A stretch of 64,000 bases of DNA, from contig NZ_JALPRD010000009.1 in NCBI RefSeq assembly GCF_023197165.1, forward strand, positions 62,001-126,000, written 5' to 3'. This document shows, one piece after another, positions 2,029 through 31,693 of this stretch. Below the pieces are notes generated by a model. The model saw only the letters and a program-made list of their open reading frames with translations, ran no database searches and was not told the DNA's origin. How positions within the stretch are numbered: position 1 is the stretch's first letter; every line of letters begins with the position of its first letter. The DNA comes from Sphingopyxis sp. MSC1_008 (GTDB taxonomy: Bacteria > Pseudomonadota > Alphaproteobacteria > Sphingomonadales > Sphingomonadaceae). The translations under genes and the position numbers were made by a program.

Positions 2029-2628
2029 ATGCGAACCTTGATCCCTGCGGCCGGCTGTGTCGCGCTTCTCCTGGCATTGCCCACGCCGACCCTTGGACAG
2101 GGCTTCCTCAAACGGATCGCCGATCGCATCGTCGAGGCGCCGAAACAGGTTGGCGGAGAAGCGGCGTCGGCCGATATGTCTTCCGCCGGGAATGCCACGG
2201 CGCCTTCGACAGCCAAAAAAGCGCCGGCGCCCGAAATCAAATATCCGAGCCGCATGCCTGAGCCCGACGGCTTTGCCGCTGTGAAGAAGGCCTATGACGA
2301 TTTCGGAAAGGTGCGCTGCACCAGCTGCGAAGGCGGCCACGCCTATGACGGTTGGGCAGTCTTTCCCCGCGATGGCAACAGGCGTCCGTTCGATGGAGCG
2401 CGGAGCATCCTCGGCGACCTGCCGATCGGGCACGTCCATCGCTGGACCGGCGCCGAATCCAAGGGTTCGCTCACGATCGTGAGCGAGGAACTGGTCGGCG
2501 GATTTCGCTGCCGCCAGCTTCTCTATCGACTGACCAAGGGAAGCGCGTCGGCAGAACGACCCGGGCTGATGTGCTGGGGCTATGCGAACCAGTTCTCCGC
2601 CTCCGAAGGCTGGAACGAGGTTTATTGA
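2029..2628 (+). CDS. Exported protein of unknown function
   Basis: 199 aa. Begins with a signal peptide (MRTLIPAAGCVALLLALP, likely cleavage near TLGQG), then an Ala/Pro/Lys-rich linker to about residue 75, then a compact domain with a CTSC pair (VRCTSCEGGHAYDGW) and two more Cys (FRCRQLLYR, MCWGYAN). The four Cys suggest disulfides or metal in the periplasm. ATG at 2029 is preceded by an ACAGGA motif. No family recognised with certainty. An 8-bp hairpin (2684-2703) follows before the next gene. Confidence 0.8.
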   Translation: MRTLIPAAGCVALLLALPTPTLGQGFLKRIADRIVEAPKQVGGEAASADMSSAGNATAPSTAKKAPAPEIKYPSRMPEPDGFAAVKKAYDDFGKVRCTSCEGGHAYDGWAVFPRDGNRRPFDGARSILGDLPIGHVHRWTGAESKGSLTIVSEELVGGFRCRQLLYRLTKGSASAERPGLMCWGYANQFSASEGWNEVY

Positions 2629-2733
2629 TCGCTGCGGCCGCGCCGCCGCTTCCCGCACCATCTCTTAGAATAGGGCCGCGATCCCGCCGGCAGCAGCCGG
2701 CGGCGGGCCCGCGCCACCAACAGGAGCATCGCG

Positions 2734-4791
2734 ATGACGATCTTTCGCACCTTACCGGCCCTCGCGATCGGATTGACACTGTCCGGCGCAGCGACCCCCG
2801 TCGCGGCAGCCGCCGCGGCGAAATGCGCCAGCGGCTGGTCGGGAACGGTGGAATTTTCGCGGCATCAAGCGAACAGCGATTCCAAGACGGTCACGCGCGT
2901 TTCGGGCAAAGGCACGCAGACGACCGACTCGTCGATGACGTACGACTATACCGCGCAGGTCGCGGTGCGTCCGGCTCCCGGAGCGGAGTACAGCCTAGGC
3001 ACCGCCAAAATCGATCTGAGCTCGGTCGCGACCGAAACGGTGAATTCGAACGATCGGATGATCTGCCCGCATGAGCGTACGATACGTCAGATGTCGGGCA
3101 GTTTCGTCAGCAAGAGCCAAACGCGCGCGAACGCCAGCGGTATCGAAGCCGGCGTCGACATCAGTATCGATTCGGACGGACGCTACACTGTCAGCGTCCG
3201 TCTGCCCGAAGTGAAGGGCACGGCTTCGGGGTCGAATGCGGCGAGCTTTAGCGGCCAGTGCAAGCCCAAGGAAGCCACGAACCAACGTATCGCAGAGATG
3301 CCCACCACGGTAGAGGCGATGCGTTTCTCAAGCAGCGGCGGCGATCGGCTCAATCCTGCTGATCCCAACCGGCTATCGGGTGGCCACTCGGAAACGTCGT
3401 TTGGCGTGACCGACTCGCTGCGCTGGAACCTGCGCCGCTGCGGCGGCGCGCTGCGCCTCGTCGACCTCAAGTTCGAGGACATGCGCTTTCCGACGTGGGA
3501 AGCTTGGCAGGACATCACCGAGCAGGTCGGCACGATCGACGGCAATATCGTCCGCCTTACGGCAATTGTCGCCAATGATAGCCCCGACGAGAAAGCCGTA
3601 ACGGTCAAGTTCCGCGATACTTACAAGGGCGACAAGTGGGAAGGCGCCAAACCCGACGGATTGCTTGGCGAGGCGGCCGTATCCATACCCGCCGGCGAAC
3701 AACGCGAGGTCCAGTTCGAATTGGACAGCTCGGGATATGCCTGGTTCGACGACGGTCGCCCGCGGGTTGTCCAGCGCATCAAGGCCGAGATCGAGGACAA
3801 AGGCAAAAAGGTCGACGATATGACGCGCAACCTGAAGGTCGCGCCAAAGCCGGTTGTCTTGGTGCACGGGCTTTGGTCGAACTGGAAGGCATGGGAAAGC
3901 TGGCAGAATATCCTGTCCGCCAGCCACAGTTACGACTGGAAGGCGTTCCCGGTGGGCGAGAGACCCGAACATGGCCGGATGAGAACCGGCGAAGAGGTCG
4001 GTAACGTCGACCCGACCAACACCATCGCCCAGAATGCGGACGAACTCGGCCGCTATATCGAATATGCTCAAAAGGACCGCAATGCCTGGCATGTCGACCT
4101 GGTCGCGCATTCGATGGGCGGGCTGATCAGTCGGCGCTATGTCCACGCACTGATGCCGAGCTATGCCGATGGCAAGCCGCAGGTGGCGCATCTGGTCATG
4201 CTCGGCACCCCCAATATGGGCAGCAGCTGCGCCAATCTGATCAGCGCGTCGCTGGACTTCGTCGGACGGCGGATGGAGGCGCTACGCGAGCTGCGACCCG
4301 ACGAGGTCCAGAAGTTCAACGCGCTTCATACCGAACGTAAAGGCGTGCCATTTTCCATCCTGGCTGGCAGTCCCCTGCCACCTCCGGCCTGCGGAATCAT
4401 GAGCTTCCATGACGGAGTGGTCACCGTGCCATCCGCTATCTGGACGATCGAAGACAATGCGCAGATGCGCTTGCCCCACACGAGCCTGACCGGCGCAGAG
4501 CCCTTCTCGACATTTGTGAAGCCGCGCCTCGCCGTCGGGCCAGCCAAGCAGAAATTGAGCGGAGCCGCCTCCTCGCGTCTCATGCTGTTGGGTGTCGATG
4601 ATACGGCCGACACTGCACTCCCTGCACCCGATTTCTCGAAGATCGTAAAGCTTGCGCCGGGCGAGACCGCCGAGGTCGTGATTCCCGTCACCATTCCGGC
4701 ACCGGCGAACCAACGGGCGTCTACGGTCAAAGTTGCAGTCATGGCGTTGTGCCATCCACCGATGCGGCGAACCGATGGCCGCCCCTTATAG
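2734..4791 (+). CDS. Secreted alpha/beta-hydrolase (esterase/lipase-like)
   Basis: 685 aa with an N-terminal signal peptide (to about residue 28). Residues 30-360 form a long beta-rich N-terminal region of unknown fold. The hydrolase core starts at the oxyanion strand VLVHGLW (His378-Gly379), with nucleophile Ser460 in AHSMGG and likely Asp560 (HDGVVTVPS) and His582 (LPHTSL). The GTPNMGSSCANL segment is typical of PGAP1/lipase-class enzymes. The C-terminal tail (about 630-685) looks like the start of a beta-sandwich that ends abruptly. AGGAG precedes the ATG. Substrate unknown. It overlaps the converging gene by 6 bp. Confidence 0.88.
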   Translation: MTIFRTLPALAIGLTLSGAATPVAAAAAAKCASGWSGTVEFSRHQANSDSKTVTRVSGKGTQTTDSSMTYDYTAQVAVRPAPGAEYSLGTAKIDLSSVATETVNSNDRMICPHERTIRQMSGSFVSKSQTRANASGIEAGVDISIDSDGRYTVSVRLPEVKGTASGSNAASFSGQCKPKEATNQRIAEMPTTVEAMRFSSSGGDRLNPADPNRLSGGHSETSFGVTDSLRWNLRRCGGALRLVDLKFEDMRFPTWEAWQDITEQVGTIDGNIVRLTAIVANDSPDEKAVTVKFRDTYKGDKWEGAKPDGLLGEAAVSIPAGEQREVQFELDSSGYAWFDDGRPRVVQRIKAEIEDKGKKVDDMTRNLKVAPKPVVLVHGLWSNWKAWESWQNILSASHSYDWKAFPVGERPEHGRMRTGEEVGNVDPTNTIAQNADELGRYIEYAQKDRNAWHVDLVAHSMGGLISRRYVHALMPSYADGKPQVAHLVMLGTPNMGSSCANLISASLDFVGRRMEALRELRPDEVQKFNALHTERKGVPFSILAGSPLPPPACGIMSFHDGVVTVPSAIWTIEDNAQMRLPHTSLTGAEPFSTFVKPRLAVGPAKQKLSGAASSRLMLLGVDDTADTALPAPDFSKIVKLAPGETAEVVIPVTIPAPANQRASTVKVAVMALCHPPMRRTDGRPL

Positions 4792-5043
4792 CCCGAGCCT
4801 GGCCAGCGCTCTTGCCAGTTCGGCATCGGCGATTTGACCCTCGCCGGGCGCAAATTTGTTGAGCGCAGTCTGAATGCGCCGTTGCGCAACCTGAAGCGCC
4901 TTGTGCCTGACCTCACGATCCTTGTTCGTCCGCCAGGAGCGGCTCTCACCGAGAAGCGGGGTCCATTTTTCCTCTTCGGCCGTCAGAATTGCCAGCGCGA
5001 GCCGGAGGCCGTCGCGCCGACCCTGGTCATAATCGGCGGACAT
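4786..5043 (-). CDS. Small helical protein of unknown function
   Basis: 85 aa. The start at 5043 is chosen because GGAGG lies 5 nt upstream of that ATG; two upstream in-frame starts lack a ribosome site. The product is soluble and charged (MSADYDQGRRDGL..., TAEEEKWTPLL) and predicted mostly helical. It lies 36 bp downstream of the TraR/DksA-type gene and is probably cotranscribed. Its end overlaps the converging hydrolase gene by 6 bp. Confidence 0.7.
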   Translation of the reverse strand: MSADYDQGRRDGLRLALAILTAEEEKWTPLLGESRSWRTNKDREVRHKALQVAQRRIQTALNKFAPGEGQIADAELARALARLGL

Positions 5044-5079
5044 CCATGCCTCCATAATTCGAACGAACAAGTCTCGCGT

Positions 5080-8248: not shown

Positions 8249-8614
8249 ATGAGCGAAGCCACCATGTTGGAAGCTGAATATGCCGCTTGGCTGCAGTCGC
8301 TCGTCACGGGCTCGATCCACGGCATGTGGCGGATCGCGAGCGACTTTACCGACCGGGAACCCGGTAAATATCCGCAGATCGACGATGCTGTCATGTTCGA
8401 TGTCGCAATGCTGCTCGCGGCGACAGTGATCGAAGGCAACGTCGAGTTTCGCGATGCGAAGCGCTTCGGCCGCGGCGCCGATATCGCGCGCTCGACTTTT
8501 CTTGAACATATACGCGGCGTCCGAAAGATGAGCGAGGCCCGCGGAACTCCGATGATCTATACGCATATTGAGAGGGCGACGGGCGAGGAACCAACACCGC
8601 ACAGCGCCCATTGA
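8249..8614 (+). CDS. Conserved-looking protein of unknown function
   Basis: 121 aa, soluble, mixed alpha/beta composition (EAEYAAWLQSLVTGS, DDAVMFDVAMLLAATVIEG). Start at 8249 has CAGGG upstream. An EcfG-like promoter at 8174-8198 suggests general stress control. No motif allows a function. It precedes the signalling block that begins at 8766. Confidence 0.65.
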   Translation: MSEATMLEAEYAAWLQSLVTGSIHGMWRIASDFTDREPGKYPQIDDAVMFDVAMLLAATVIEGNVEFRDAKRFGRGADIARSTFLEHIRGVRKMSEARGTPMIYTHIERATGEEPTPHSAH

Positions 8615-8765
8615 TTGCTGGGATGATGGCCTGTGCAGCCGTCTGCCAACAGCGCCGTCCGGGCCGGCGCGGCGGAAAAGGATCGATGGCCCGACCCCTA
8701 TGATTTTTCTTCTGAGAGTGACCGCGCTCATAGGAATGTATCGTCGCGCGCGTTAAGGGAACGAA

Positions 8766-9131
8766 ATGAACAGGCATATCCTTGTCGTTGAGGATGATCC
8801 GCTCGTCGCTCTTATGCTCGAGGGTTATCTGGATGCTCTCGGCCACACGACGGTGGCCGTGGTCGAATCGGTCGCTGCCGCACTCGCGCAGATCGCAAGC
8901 CGCGATCTCGATGCCGCGATCGTCGATGTACATCTTGCGAGCGGAGAGACGAGCGGCCCGGTTGCCGATGCACTCCGGGCGGCCGACATTCCCTTTCTCG
9001 TGACGACGGGATCGCTCACCGCGATCGATGACCCGGCGCTGGCTGCGGCGCCGCTCGTTGCAAAGCCGTTCGCGCTCGCGAGCCTTGCGACGGCGCTTGC
9101 TGAATTGTGGCGGGCTCCAGTGGAAGACTAA
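8766..9131 (+). CDS. Single-domain response regulator (receiver only)
   Basis: 121 aa, a receiver domain with nothing else: acidic pair Asp10-Asp11, phospho-acceptor Asp54 in AAIVDVHL, Thr near 80 (LVTTGS) and Lys in VAKPF. AAGGGA precedes the ATG. It faces the convergent hybrid kinase/KaiC operon and is closely similar in pattern to the receivers at 12941-13285 and 31322-31693. Such proteins usually act as phosphate shuttles or sinks in a phosphorelay. Its kinase is not proven, but the neighbouring hybrid kinase is the obvious candidate. Confidence 0.92.
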   Translation: MNRHILVVEDDPLVALMLEGYLDALGHTTVAVVESVAAALAQIASRDLDAAIVDVHLASGETSGPVADALRAADIPFLVTTGSLTAIDDPALAAAPLVAKPFALASLATALAELWRAPVED

Positions 9132-9245
9132 CCCATACCGGTGAATGGATGGACATCACTGCTTCAAGGCAACAGCGCCAACAAACAGAGCGACGCCGAG
9201 CAGGCCGACCTGGCCGTTGGACGTTCTAGCAGCAATCCGATCGGG

Positions 9246-11252
9246 CTAGGACGCCAAACGAGACACAAGCGCGACATCGCGGATAGCGCGCGCAAGTTCC
9301 GCGACGCGAAACGGTTTGGGCAGCCGCATGACATGCGTCGCGGTATCTTCGGCAAGATCGGCAAAGCCGGTGATCATCAGAATTGGAAGGTCGATCCGTA
9401 CCTTGCGGGCTTCGGCCGCGAGTTCGAGACCGCTCATCGCGGGCATCAAATAATCGGTCACGACGATGTCGAACGGCTCCGAACGGATTGCGCCCAGCGC
9501 TTTCTGGCCGGAATCCGCCTGGGTGACGCGGTGTCCCATTTCTTCCAGCATCGCGGCCGTGCTGGCGCGAACGGTCTCTTCATCGTCGACGAGCAATATG
9601 TGCATCGGCGGTGCTTCGACCATTGCTGGGTCGAAATGATGCTCGTGTAAAACCGCTGCCGTCGCCGCTGCGGGGAGCCAAATTTCTGCCGTCGTGCCTT
9701 CGCCGGGTGTGCTTCGCAGCGTCAGGCGACCGCCCGATTGCGCGGCGAGACCATGGACCATTGAGAGGCCGAGGCCGGTCCCTTTGCCGATGCCCTTGGT
9801 CGAGTAAAATGGCTCGACGGCGCGCGCGAGCGTATCCGCATCCATTCCCTCGCCGCAATCGGCAACCGAGATGCGGACATAAGCGCCTTGATGCAGCGAC
9901 GCATCCCGCGCACCGACCGCAACCAGGTCCACCGCTACTGAGAGGCGGCCCCCTTTCGGCATCGCATCGCGGGCGTTGATGGCGAGATTCAGCAAGGCGA
10001 GTTCGAGCTGGTGCGGGTCGACCATCGCTGCCGGCACGCGTTCGTCTAGCGCAAGAACGAGCGTTATCGTCGGACCGATCGACCGCTGGATCAATTCGGC
10101 GATGCCCGCGATTAATGCAACGACGTCGACAGGCAAGGTTTCGAGATTCTGTCGGCGCGCGAATGCGAGCAGGCGAGCGACGAGCGTGCGGGCGCGTTCG
10201 GACGACTGCAGCGCGCCGTCGACGAGATGCTGCAACCGTTCGTCGGTTATTCTGCGGCGTACGAGATCGAGGCTGCCGACGATCGGGGTCAGAAGATTGT
10301 TAAAGTCATGGGCGACGCCCCCGGTGAGCCGTCCCAATGTCTCGAGCTTTTGCGCCTCATGGAGCTGCGCCATCGCCTCTCCATATTCGCGCGTCCGCTC
10401 TTCGACCCGCTGCTCCAGTTCGACCGTGAAGTTGCGCAGCGTTTCCTCGGCTGTCTTCCGCCCCGTGATCTCCTGACTCACCCCGGTCATCCCGAGCGCC
10501 CGGCCTGCAGCGTCGAGCGCGGGACGGCCGCGCACCTGGACCCAGTGGAGACTCCTGTCGGGCCAAACACAGCGATATTCGACATCATAATCCTCGCCGG
10601 TCGCGAGGGCGCTGCGTACTTTCTCCTGCATCATGGCGCGGTCTTCGTCGTGCACGCTCGTTATGAGATCGTCGTAGGAAAATGGATCGCCCGGCGCGCG
10701 GCCGTAGTGGCTCTTGCAGTCGTCGGACGCCTCGAGCTGCATCGAGGCGACATCGAAGGACCATGCGCCGAGCTTTCCAGCGGCAAGCGCGATGCGCAGT
10801 TGCTGCTCGCCCTCGCGGATTTCCTGCAGCCGCGCCCGTGCTTCATATTGTCGGCGCCGAGCACGCAGCGCCGCCCGGGCGATGCTGATGAGCGTTGTCG
10901 GATGAAAGGGACGCTCGAGAAAGGTGACATTGCCAAGCAACTCGAGATATCGGCCGGCAGCGGGATTGCGCTCGATGCCGCCTCCGTGTTCAGTCAACAG
11001 GATAAAGGGAAAGTCGGACCACTCTTGCTGCGCCTTGAGAAAGGCATCGAGTCCGCGCAGATCGGCGCCCCGAAGGGCTTCGTCCGTCATCAATGCGAAT
11101 GCGGCGCCATCAGACAGTTTCTCGACGAATTCGGCCAGCGACCGCGCAACGTCGCTTTCGATCCTCGCTTCACGCAACATCGAAGTGGCGATCTCGGCGT
11201 CACGACCGCGCGGGGCAAGAAGGACCGCGTGCTCGGAAAAGGTCCGATTCAT
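9246..11252 (-). CDS. PAS-containing hybrid histidine kinase/response regulator
   Basis: 668 aa. Domains in order: N-terminal degenerate receiver-like segment (about 1-130), coiled linker, PAS domain (about 155-280, GAWSFD...WVQVRG...GVSQEITGRK), HisKA with His315 in GGVAHDFNNLL, HATPase (NARDAMPKGG, GTGLGLSMVHGL) and a C-terminal receiver with Asp600 in VVTDYLMP. No membrane span, so cytosolic. The start overlaps the kaiC-like gene stop by 4 bp (ATGA), so the two are translationally coupled. It probably feeds phosphate via its own receiver to single-domain receivers nearby (inference). Confidence 0.93.
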   Translation of the reverse strand: MNRTFSEHAVLLAPRGRDAEIATSMLREARIESDVARSLAEFVEKLSDGAAFALMTDEALRGADLRGLDAFLKAQQEWSDFPFILLTEHGGGIERNPAAGRYLELLGNVTFLERPFHPTTLISIARAALRARRRQYEARARLQEIREGEQQLRIALAAGKLGAWSFDVASMQLEASDDCKSHYGRAPGDPFSYDDLITSVHDEDRAMMQEKVRSALATGEDYDVEYRCVWPDRSLHWVQVRGRPALDAAGRALGMTGVSQEITGRKTAEETLRNFTVELEQRVEERTREYGEAMAQLHEAQKLETLGRLTGGVAHDFNNLLTPIVGSLDLVRRRITDERLQHLVDGALQSSERARTLVARLLAFARRQNLETLPVDVVALIAGIAELIQRSIGPTITLVLALDERVPAAMVDPHQLELALLNLAINARDAMPKGGRLSVAVDLVAVGARDASLHQGAYVRISVADCGEGMDADTLARAVEPFYSTKGIGKGTGLGLSMVHGLAAQSGGRLTLRSTPGEGTTAEIWLPAAATAAVLHEHHFDPAMVEAPPMHILLVDDEETVRASTAAMLEEMGHRVTQADSGQKALGAIRSEPFDIVVTDYLMPAMSGLELAAEARKVRIDLPILMITGFADLAEDTATHVMRLPKPFRVAELARAIRDVALVSRLAS

Positions 11253-12775
11253 TCGGGGCGCTCGTCCCGCGTTTTTTCCATCAATCCCGCCGACGGGATA
11301 ATCTCGGGGACCCCGCGAAGCACGCCCTGGAATCCCGTCAGCGGCTCGCCGAGGGTGATCCCCTTCGCATCGATCCAGTATTCGCGGATCGTATATTCAT
11401 GCGCGCCGGTCCGCTTTTTCATAATCGAGATGGCCCGCCTCACACGTCCCGCCGCCTCGAAATAACGCAGAAGCACGACGGTATCGGCGAGGTAGGTCAC
11501 ATCGACTGGCGACTTCATATCGCCGACCAGGCCGTGCTGGGCGACGGTGAGAAAGGTCATAACGCCCTGGCGGTTCAGATATTGCAGCAATTCGTGCATA
11601 TGGAGAATGAGCGCGCTTTCTTCGGGCATCGCTGCCTGGAAGCCGTTCAGGCTGTCGATCACGACGGTCTTCGCCTGATGCTCCTCGACACAGTTGCGCA
11701 CCCGCTGCGAAAATTCCCCGGGAGAGAGTTCGGCGGCATCGACCTGTTCGATGATGAGATTGCCGCCGTCGACCATTGCCTGGATGTCGATCCCAAGACC
11801 CTTCGCACGCGAGAAGAGCAATCCAAGCTCCTCATCGAAAACGAACATGGCGGCCTTGCCGCCGCGCCTGATCGCGCTTTCAACGAATGTCAGGGCAAAC
11901 AGCGATTTTCCGGTTCCCGATGGACCGAGGATCAGTGCGTTCGACCCGGTCTCGAAGCCGCCTCCCAGCAAGGCGTTGAGCTCGGCGCTATCGGTCGTGA
12001 CGGGCTCGCGTTTGAACTGCGTCTTATGCTCGAGCGACACGAGCCGGGGGAAAACCCGGACGCCGCCGTGCTCGATGACAAAATCATGATAGCCGCCGCG
12101 AAATTTCTGACCCCGATATTTGAGTATGCGCAAGCGCCGACGTTCGGGGCCATATTCGGGCGACATTTCCTGAAGCCGGATCACGCCGTGCGCAACGCTG
12201 TGCACGGTCTTGTCGGCGCTTTCCGAGGTCAAATCGTCGAGCATCAGCACGGTCGCCTCATGATGCGCGAAATAATGCTTGAGCGAGAGGATCTGTCGCC
12301 GATAGCGCAGCGAGCTTTGGGCGAGCAGGCGGATTTCGGAAAGGCTGTCGAGGACGACACGATCCGGTTTGACCTCCTCATATTTCTCGAGGATCCGTTT
12401 CGTCGTCTCGCCAAGTTCGAGGTCCGATGAATACAGGAGGCTTTGTTGTTGCTCGTCGTTGAGCAAGGCCTCAGGCGGCACAAGCTCGAAAATGTGAAAA
12501 TTGTCCGGAAGCTCCCACCCATGCGACCGCGCCGTCTCGCGAAGCTCTTCCTCGGTTTCCGAAAGCGTGATGTAGAGGCAGCGCTCGCCCGCTTCTGCGC
12601 CCGTCATCAGGAACTGGCTCGCAATTGTCGTCTTGCCGGTCCCCGGATCGCCTTCCATCAAAAAAATCCGGCCGCGCCTCAGCCCCCCGGCTGTAATGTC
12701 ATCAAGGCCGGCGACACCTGTTGCCGCCTTGCCGGAGCGACTTTCGCCGTTTTTATTTGCTTCGGCCTTGGTCAT
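11249..12775 (-). CDS. KaiC-family double-domain ATPase
   Basis: 508 aa with two RecA-like KaiC domains: Walker A GDPGTGKTT at 42-50 in the first and GPSGTGKS at about 284-291 in the second; Walker-B-like VVLDSLSEIR and VVIDSLNGF follow. Length matches cyanobacterial KaiC, where the second domain autophosphorylates; no kaiA or kaiB is present here. In non-cyanobacteria, KaiC homologues occur with histidine kinases in stress or timing roles. The downstream overlapping hybrid kinase supports a shared signalling function. Confidence 0.92.
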   Translation of the reverse strand: MTKAEANKNGESRSGKAATGVAGLDDITAGGLRRGRIFLMEGDPGTGKTTIASQFLMTGAEAGERCLYITLSETEEELRETARSHGWELPDNFHIFELVPPEALLNDEQQQSLLYSSDLELGETTKRILEKYEEVKPDRVVLDSLSEIRLLAQSSLRYRRQILSLKHYFAHHEATVLMLDDLTSESADKTVHSVAHGVIRLQEMSPEYGPERRRLRILKYRGQKFRGGYHDFVIEHGGVRVFPRLVSLEHKTQFKREPVTTDSAELNALLGGGFETGSNALILGPSGTGKSLFALTFVESAIRRGGKAAMFVFDEELGLLFSRAKGLGIDIQAMVDGGNLIIEQVDAAELSPGEFSQRVRNCVEEHQAKTVVIDSLNGFQAAMPEESALILHMHELLQYLNRQGVMTFLTVAQHGLVGDMKSPVDVTYLADTVVLLRYFEAAGRVRRAISIMKKRTGAHEYTIREYWIDAKGITLGEPLTGFQGVLRGVPEIIPSAGLMEKTRDERPE

Positions 12776-12940
12776 CGTTCGCTACATCTCCTTCAGCTTA
12801 TCAACGCTCTGCATCTGGTGCGAGGCCGTCTTGGCTCAACCGGATGAAGTCTCGACGACGCAGTTCCTGCGTGGTCTTTTTCATCCGGTTCGCCCATCAA
12901 GAATGATTGACCGCGCCTGAGGGTTCCGAAGGCGGCGCGG

Positions 12941-13285
12941 TCAAAGCCGCCCGAGACCCTCGCGCAGGTCGTCCAGTGTAAACGGCTTGGCGAGGATTGG
13001 ACGCCCGCGCCAAGCCGGACCTGTCTCACCGACGAATCCGCCCGTCGCGACGAGAAACGGTATGTTGTTTTCGCTCAGCGCGGCTGCGATCGCGTCGCCG
13101 ACGTCACCATCCGCAAGGTGGACGTCGACCACCGCAGCGTCGATGCCGCCCTCTGCAATCTTCGCCAGCGCGTCGTCGACGCGGTCAACCGTCGCCGCGC
13201 AGCGATGGCCGAGCATATCGATATATTCTTCCAGCAACATGCCGATGATCGCATCATCTTCGACGATCAAAATCCGTTGGTTCAT
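12941..13285 (-). CDS. Single-domain response regulator (receiver only)
   Basis: 114 aa from ATG 13285 (GAGGA 7 nt upstream; a GTG one codon earlier is also possible). Receiver signature: Asp10-Asp11, phospho-acceptor Asp54 in AAVVDVHLADG, Thr near LVATGG and Lys in LAKPF. It lies upstream of the kaiC-like gene, 165 bp away, on the same strand. Sequence layout matches the receivers at 8766 and 31322, so these three are probable paralogues. Confidence 0.9.
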   Translation of the reverse strand: MNQRILIVEDDAIIGMLLEEYIDMLGHRCAATVDRVDDALAKIAEGGIDAAVVDVHLADGDVGDAIAAALSENNIPFLVATGGFVGETGPAWRGRPILAKPFTLDDLREGLGRL

Positions 13286-13455
13286 CACTGATTCCTCGAT
13301 TAGCCATGGCGCCGGTTCTCCTGAGCCCTCGTCCCGCGCCTACCGTTCCGGCGAGAGTCAAAAGATGAAGTTGGAATAGTCACCGCCGCGCGGCACGACG
13401 GAAGCGATGACCAGGGCATTCAAAACAAGCGCAAACACTCTCGCCCTTCGGACAT

Positions 13456-13953
13456 TCAAGCGACCCACAACCGCTGGTCACGATGCCAGGTCTCGATCGA
13501 TTTTTTCGGGTAAAGGTCAAAGACTTCGTCGGCCGGGCTGATGGTCGGCACGACCCACGCCGCCTTATATTTGAGCATGATATGCACCGAGACCGGTGGT
13601 TCGGGGAGATCAGTGTTAATCGCGCTCGCGAAGGGATGGACCAGCTCAGGCCATTCGGGATCGAAAAGCCAGAGTGCGGAACCGCAGGCGGTGCAGAACC
13701 GCCGCTCCGCGGTGGAAAGTTCGCAGCCTTGATGTTCGTCGTCGGAGATGCGGGCGCGGTACGTGCCGAGCCGCTCTTCGCCTTGAACCTCGAGCGTGGA
13801 TGCGCTGGCAGCCAGGTTGATCGCATATCCTCCGCCGCCCTGCTGTTTGCGGCAGATCGAGCAATAGCAGCGTTGATAAGGGACCGGTGTGTGGCTCTCG
13901 ATCTGAAATGTCACGGCGTCGCAGCGGCACGAGCCTTCGAGCATCAACGGCAT
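13456..13953 (-). CDS. GFA family (CENP-V type) zinc protein
   Basis: 165 aa. Contains the GFA zinc ligands: SCRCDAV near residue 9, CYCSIC near 34 and CTACG near 91. Family members include glutathione-dependent formaldehyde-activating enzyme, but most are uncharacterised. The start at 13953 is chosen because the family fold begins at once (MPLMLEGSCRC) and GGAGG is about 11 nt upstream; the frame is open further upstream but overlaps a real gene. It lies 5 bp behind the gene at 13959, likely in the same operon. A second GFA gene is at 32530. Confidence 0.88.
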   Translation of the reverse strand: MPLMLEGSCRCDAVTFQIESHTPVPYQRCYCSICRKQQGGGGYAINLAASASTLEVQGEERLGTYRARISDDEHQGCELSTAERRFCTACGSALWLFDPEWPELVHPFASAINTDLPEPPVSVHIMLKYKAAWVVPTISPADEVFDLYPKKSIETWHRDQRLWVA

Positions 13954-31321: not shown

Positions 31322-31693
31322 TTGGGAAGCCGGATATTGATCGTCGAAGATGATCCGTTGGTTGCAATGATGCTTGAAGATTATCTCGAGCTTCTTGGCC
31401 ATCAACCCGTGGCTTGTGCAGACGGTATAGATTCGGCCTTGGCCGAACTGGCGTCGAGCGACATTGATGCGGCCATTATCGACGTTTATCTCGCAAATGG
31501 TGAAACGAGCGGACCGATAGCCGAGAAGCTCGCTGCGGGAGCAATTCCGTTTCTCATCTCGACCGGGGGATTTATCGCGGAGCGCGCGCCGGTCTTTGCC
31601 GATCGTCCGGTGCTGATGAAGCCTTTCACGGCGAAGAGCCTCAACCAGGCAATTACTGGTCTCGTCGGATCTGCACACGATCAGGGCATGTAA
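31322..31693 (+). CDS. Single-domain response regulator (receiver only)
   Basis: 123 aa from a TTG start. Receiver with Asp10-Asp11, phospho-acceptor Asp54 in AAIIDVYLANG, and Lys in MKPF. GGGGG lies about 8 nt before the TTG. Closely follows the pattern of the receivers at 8766 and 12941. There is no kinase next to it, so it is an orphan regulator likely phosphorylated in trans. Confidence 0.88.
   Translation: MGSRILIVEDDPLVAMMLEDYLELLGHQPVACADGIDSALAELASSDIDAAIIDVYLANGETSGPIAEKLAAGAIPFLISTGGFIAERAPVFADRPVLMKPFTAKSLNQAITGLVGSAHDQGM

Follow-up and report, generated by a model that had tools for sequence, protein, structure and literature searches.

Pairing of KaiC with a histidine kinase

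The window analysed here, a stretch of 64,000 nucleotides from Sphingopyxis sp. MSC1_008 (contig NZ_JALPRD010000009.1, positions 62,001 to 126,000), carries a gene for a two-domain KaiC and, directly behind it, a gene for a hybrid histidine kinase, with a single-domain receiver on either side (P0004 and P0003; Table 1). An initial annotation of the sequence had described a KaiC gene overlapping a PAS hybrid histidine kinase by 4 bp and flanked by two receivers, one of them convergent, and the coordinates and Pfam domains agree with this layout, with the kinase start and the kaiC end sharing positions 11249-11252, P0004 upstream and P0003 downstream. The kinase of the window has its phosphoacceptor H315, together with D600 and K646 of its C-terminal receiver, and its first ~150 residues form a conserved domain in their own right, referred to below as the pseudo-receiver.

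Table 1. Features of the KaiC-kinase locus, in positions of the window.
Feature	Position	Strand	Remarks
kaiC	11249..12775	-	508 aa; two KaiC ATPase domains; PF06745 249.9 bits, two stretches
KaiC CI domain	~12044-12724	-	
KaiC CII domain	~11354-12001	-	
Codons of KaiC T427 and Y428	11492..11497	-	places of Synechococcus elongatus KaiC S431/T432 (alignment)
Hybrid histidine kinase	9246..11252	-	668 aa; PAS-HisKA-HATPase_c-REC
Kinase N-terminal predicted pseudo-receiver, residues 1-155	10788..11252	-	constant KaiC-linked module
Kinase PAS domain, residues 173-258	10479..10736	-	not constant among relatives
Kinase HisKA + HATPase_c core, residues 306-529	9666..10337	-	
Kinase C-terminal receiver, residues 552-657	9282..9599	-	
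P0004, single-domain receiver	12941..13285 (ATG; 13288 from GTG)	-	upstream of kaiC, same direction
P0003, single-domain receiver	8766..9131	+	convergent with the kinase gene

The pairing of KaiC and kinase is genuine and occurs widely, as seen in samples of 385 genomes from the class and 398 from the phylum, some genomes being in both. With two lines set post hoc, E 9e-24 or better for a strong match to the N-terminal domain of the kinase and 41% identity for the window's type of KaiC, 55 of the 58 strong domain matches lie directly downstream of a KaiC gene on the same strand, and 55 of the 56 KaiC genes at or above 41% identity are followed directly by a gene for a pseudo-receiver kinase. 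The sole exception among the 56 is a KaiC fragment at a contig end in G169, a genome in which another contig has a KaiC piece and the domain. No pseudo-receiver kinase follows any of the 63 KaiC genes below 41% identity, and five weak domain matches (E 6e-9 to 5e-7) fall outside the 58, none with a listed KaiC just upstream. Among the best 80 of 143 relatives found in named genomes, a domain match stands right behind kaiC in all 80 loci, the closest of these relatives being a Sphingopyxis with a KaiC 88% identical to that of the window. The kinase runs off the contig in L034 and L039, and the N-terminal domain was aligned in 38 loci. Other genomes of the genus carry KaiC at 89% identity (3 of 59) or at 52-53% (2 of 59), and a Methylobacterium genome carries the pair with a KaiC 72% identical (L088).

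The window's genome holds a second KaiC on contig C22, 42% identical to the first and followed by a 355-aa kinase of the HWE class (L008, G000:C22, 4325-7346), the first 150 residues of which match the window's domain. Since this second pair shares the domain but has an HWE core, the N-terminal domain is treated here as a separate unit. A single receiver lies right behind the HWE kinase. Elsewhere, three KaiC genes of 36-37% identity (L212, L270, L271), which serve as the outgroup in the tree discussed below, have no pseudo-receiver kinase downstream, and in L192 (G143, 2254-5051) the pseudo-receiver and kinase core occupy two overlapping frames, through a frameshift or a split gene. A single-frame fusion of KaiC and pseudo-receiver was found at none of the loci whose reading frames were listed.

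Residues 16-494 of the window's KaiC align with a solved KaiC structure (E 3e-57), and the Walker A lysines are retained in both domains. In KaiC of this type no more than 26 residues follow the profile, which is also the case in 9 of 13 distant KaiC rows. At the phosphosite the window's KaiC has T-Y, compared with the S-T pair of the KaiABC clock, and across the 109 rows of its type this site is Thr (96) or Ser (13) followed by Tyr (106) or Phe (3). The place of the first catalytic Glu is Ser in CI (104 of 109) and Asp in CII (108 of 109); the 13 distant rows have Glu at the CI place in 10 and at the CII place in 8, and S-T or S-S at the phosphosite in 11. The window's KaiC type is therefore unlikely to be phosphorylated at two sites, Ser and Thr, like KaiC of the cyanobacterial clock, and phosphorylation at one site is possible.

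The absence of kaiA and kaiB, claimed from the window, extends to the whole 4.75 Mb genome (listed as 99.99% complete), in which neither KaiA nor KaiB had a match, the S. elongatus positive controls being found in both searches. In 38 genomes chosen from the samples, 15 KaiB places were found in 11 genomes, all within ~0.7 kb of a KaiC below 36% identity (coordinates compared by eye), and no window-type KaiC has one as its neighbour. Of the 26 genomes that contain window-type KaiC, three (G143, G169, G344) also have kaiB, beside another KaiC, and the absence of kaiB given for this context in the accessible text of PMC3164672 therefore holds mostly, but not always.

The N-terminal domain and exchange of the kinase core

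Against Pfam, the window's N-terminal domain matches a receiver only below threshold (E 0.0075), with a profile search of PDB sequences recovering receivers from E 3e-4 and a profile comparison showing moderate likeness to receivers (probability 63.5, E 6.8e-5). The predicted structure is a receiver fold (pLDDT 89) with a long last helix at residues 118-154, and the 50 structure matches listed are, by title, receivers or receiver-bearing proteins, headed by PleD (Z 15.7 over 135 residues). The second domain of PleD (residues 153-294), also among the matches (Z 15.2), appears to be the pseudo-receiver named in the accessible text of PMC12632262, and the best 50 structure matches include no specific likeness to the pseudo-receiver of KaiA or CikA. 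A KaiB-like domain of the SasA type, with a thioredoxin fold, was rejected because the comparison with ten KaiB sequences fails (probability 0.1 over 7 columns) and the domain is modelled as a receiver fold.

The residues of the domain were compared over 142 rows, which represent 141 places (G453 is counted twice, as L200 and L261) and include the near-copies L226 and L077. The acidic pair is replaced by Ala (135/142) and Pro (138/142), the receiver Lys by Arg (141/142), and the phospho-Asp place holds Glu in 117 rows and Asp in 16, with the window's copy among the latter. With Ala-Pro at the acidic pair and Arg for Lys, the domain would be unable to work as a normal receiver, and the model and alignment together describe it as a receiver fold without the phosphorylation residues. 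Its most conserved stretches are residues 76-87 and 109-121.

The kinase core joined to this domain is of the HisKA class in 130 rows and of the HWE class in 10, with none recognised in the remaining 2. On a KaiC tree of 75 rows and 3 outgroup rows, which contains 18 of 80 named loci and was built by a quick method that flagged a meeting of long branches (L207 with L008), the HWE core requires at least five changes, all of them forced by well-supported branches. The tree excludes the two loci with no recognised core (L080, L192) and retains L195, with half a KaiC, which was left out of the correlation given below. Two loci with HWE kinases pair in this tree with loci of the HisKA class at 99% support (L259 with L088, and L249 with L072), and the window's genome has one HisKA pair and one HWE pair. 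The PAS domain, which had been proposed as the input of the system, is likewise not a constant element, with no PAS found in 77 of the 142 rows, each of these 77 having a complete HisKA hybrid kinase; the profile used was seeded from the window's kinase and may miss divergent PAS or GAF domains.

Over 63 loci, the identity of KaiC correlates with that of the N-terminal domain at 0.90, compared with 0.51 for the core and 0.47 for the C-terminal receiver, and the partial correlations are 0.86, -0.07 and 0.11 respectively, with the domain ahead of the core in 500 of 500 resamplings. This correlated divergence (r 0.90), together with the adjacency in 55 of 56 and 55 of 58 cases, upholds the proposal that KaiC and the kinase belong together. 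The pseudo-receiver stays with KaiC while the rest of the kinase is exchanged, and is therefore the likely site at which a KaiC signal is handed over.

It is highly unlikely, in our judgement, that KaiC and the kinase are mere neighbours in a cassette held by linkage and transfer, with no direct contact between the proteins. The patchy occurrence in the genus, where KaiC of at least 52% identity is found in 5 of the 59 other genomes, would fit such a cassette, as would copies on conjugative plasmids, but at least five times the break between constant and exchanged parts falls after the pseudo-receiver, within the kinase gene, and not between the genes. On plasmids, KaiC is found at E <= 1e-60 on 242 of 72,556 records, 113 of these predicted to be conjugative (distant types included), with the KaiC-kinase pair itself on plasmid At of Agrobacterium fabrum C58 and on a Caballeronia plasmid. 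For the window's copy, a recent origin from a plasmid was rejected, because no close plasmid match was obtained (the best of 21 plasmid records has 71% identity over 26% of the query) and the pair is common to G016, G034 and G005; the first two genomes also share flank stretches with the window.

Flanking receivers and surrounding sequence

The initial annotation had joined KaiC, the kinase, P0003 and P0004 in one phosphorelay, a scheme that now seems very improbable. Both receivers lie close by and keep the usual receiver residues, P0003 scoring above the Pfam receiver cut-off (32.7 vs 30.2 bits) and P0004 just below it (29.2), and relatives recur beside the pair in other genomes, with a close relative of P0003 in G016, one of P0004 in G005, and DNA matching the P0004 region in G034. 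However, a P0003/P0004-like receiver occurs within 1.5 kb of the pair in only 8 of 138 loci, two of which are the window's own locus and the second pair of the same genome (P0004 being outside the stretch used for the window's locus in this count). P0003 is, moreover, in the opposite orientation, and the genome contains eight further matches to P0004, including P0003 (47% identical). The two receivers were thus rejected as fixed parts of the system and may be local partners that do not define it; of the gene set expected to recur in other genomes, the KaiC-kinase pair does so (55/56) and the neighbouring receivers rarely do. Another of the eight matches, a single-domain receiver 47% identical to P0004, is encoded in the window at 31322-31654 (+). 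The sequences PFLVTTGSL of P0003 and PFLVATGGF of P0004 appear to resemble the FAT GUY motif. The FAT GUY receiver family is named for SdrG in the accessible part of PMC5898713.

Beyond P0003, an open reading frame of 121 aa at 8249-8614 (+) has no Pfam or NCBIfam match, and DNA of this region matches, at 66%, a stretch beside the KaiC-kinase pair in G016. Between P0004 and kaiC, an imperfect inverted repeat at 12840-12900, ACCGGATGAA ... TTCATCCGGT, was spotted by eye and is possibly a regulatory site. A scan of 8500-13700 for sigma-70-like promoters and terminators gave nothing above shuffled sequence. An EcfG-type stress promoter at kaiC was rejected: with the EcfG consensus the window gives two matches, where chance predicts 0.9, and kaiC has neither of them. 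The initial description of the locus as a stress- or time-keeping module found no evidence in this analysis.

Known KaiC systems and the direction of signalling

A 2011 study (PMC3164672) describes a second, "dark-blue" kaiC context, defined by a specific kinase gene (Nt_HK) that systematically comes next after kaiC, with SY, TY or SF sites and no kaiB, the example being Rta_04330/Rta_04340 of Ramlibacter tataouinensis; co-transcription of such a pair in Ramlibacter was reported by reverse transcription PCR. The window likewise has kaiC and then a kinase with a conserved N-terminal domain, T427-Y428 and no kaiB, and, compared through the published description, fits this KaiC/Nt_HK kind, which is experimentally almost untouched. 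For the N-terminal domain, PMC3164672 reports that it weakly matches a receiver and aligns weakly with KaiB/SasA, and proposes a family of KaiC-interacting kinases in which this domain would be what binds KaiC. Its figure legend has a KaiB/SasA-like domain, in contrast to the receiver fold, not KaiB-like, predicted here, and the HWE version is not mentioned in its accessible sections. Within the literature searched, which left most subscription journals outside its scope, no paper was recognised that deals with HWE versions or settles the fold of the domain.

The kaiC2-kaiR2 pair of Methylorubrum (Methylobacterium) extorquens AM1 is, as in the window, a two-gene kaiC cluster without kaiB, and may be the same pair. 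According to the accessible text of PMC8069551, kaiC2-kaiR2 affects UV resistance and leaf colonisation, KaiC2 loses phosphorylation when S426 is changed, and LabA is a downstream factor. In the whole genome of the window no NYN-domain (LabA-like) protein was found. LabA is an NYN protein. Rhodopseudomonas has a KaiB-linked KaiC operon with a kinase. In CikA, the pseudo-receiver lies at the C-terminal end. KaiB-linked KaiC operons of Rhodobacter and Bradyrhizobium (PMC5520375, PMC6627678, PMC3899966) also have a kinase near KaiC but, unlike the window, have kaiB, and the KaiB-linked KaiC proteins found here are 26-32% identical to that of the window. Both SasA and CikA are cyanobacterial clock kinases that read the state of KaiC (PMC5520375, PMC12632262), SasA through a KaiB-like N-terminal domain where the window's kinase has a predicted receiver fold, and CikA with a pseudo-receiver that binds KaiB, which is absent from the window's genome. 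Control of a hybrid kinase by a pseudo-receiver has precedents in ShkA and CikA (PMC12632262, PMC7010744), and SasA homologues outside cyanobacteria are described as lacking the KaiB-like domain, with an output pathway that must differ (PMC5520375).

Of the directions in which a signal could pass, control of the kinase by the state of KaiC is suggested as the best reading. We consider it moderately probable that the two proteins form a signalling unit in which KaiC docks on the predicted pseudo-receiver and sets the activity of the kinase. KaiC would, as in its family, form an ATP-dependent ring that changes its ATPase or phosphorylation state, and the pseudo-receiver would bind KaiC and raise or lower autophosphorylation of the kinase, possibly via its long last helix. 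The phosphoryl group would then pass to the receiver within the kinase and from there to partners differing between organisms, among which P0003 or P0004 might, speculatively, be acceptors in this genus.

The reverse direction, with the kinase sensing and its pseudo-receiver setting the ATPase or phosphorylation of KaiC in the manner of KaiB or KaiA, and KaiC acting on further targets, appears rather unlikely. Adjacency and correlated divergence fit it equally, the domain occurs with a KaiC type that lacks a neighbouring KaiB, and the KaiA of S. elongatus carries a pseudo-receiver and stimulates KaiC (PMC12632262, accessible text). However, the catalytic core is complete in nearly all of the kinases and a C-terminal receiver is present in most, suggesting an output of their own, and the free change of core class is easier to reconcile with variable outputs than with a fixed effect on KaiC.

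Several observations weigh against control of the kinase by KaiC through this domain. Mean pairwise identity is 0.43 for the domain and 0.48 for the core, where a fixed interface might be more conserved, and the Asp retained at the phospho-Asp place in 16 of the 142 rows, the window's included, makes another use of this residue conceivable. Three strong domain matches have no adjacent KaiC, in G453 (L261), G825:C11 (L246) and G750:C21 (L247); G825 and G750 have a window-type KaiC elsewhere, and in G453 no KaiC passed the cut-off. Either these kinases use a KaiC encoded at a distance, or the domain can bind something else. Linkage of neighbouring sequences can also account for some of the correlation between KaiC and the domain, but not for the recurrence of the break behind the pseudo-receiver, inside the kinase gene.

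What is new here is the pseudo-receiver as a constant KaiC-linked module under exchangeable kinase cores. More tentatively, the pseudo-receiver could be a portable KaiC adaptor that replaces KaiB, having been fitted to HisKA hybrid and HWE kinases at least five times and wiring KaiC to differing outputs in Pseudomonadota where that KaiC has no KaiB next to it. The proposal of KaiC-interacting kinases made in 2011 thereby gains numbers, a predicted fold and a second kinase class, and the exchanged kinase cores are ready-made chimeras for a direct test. For the read-out of KaiC outside cyanobacteria, the pseudo-receiver is a natural candidate in a widespread pair.

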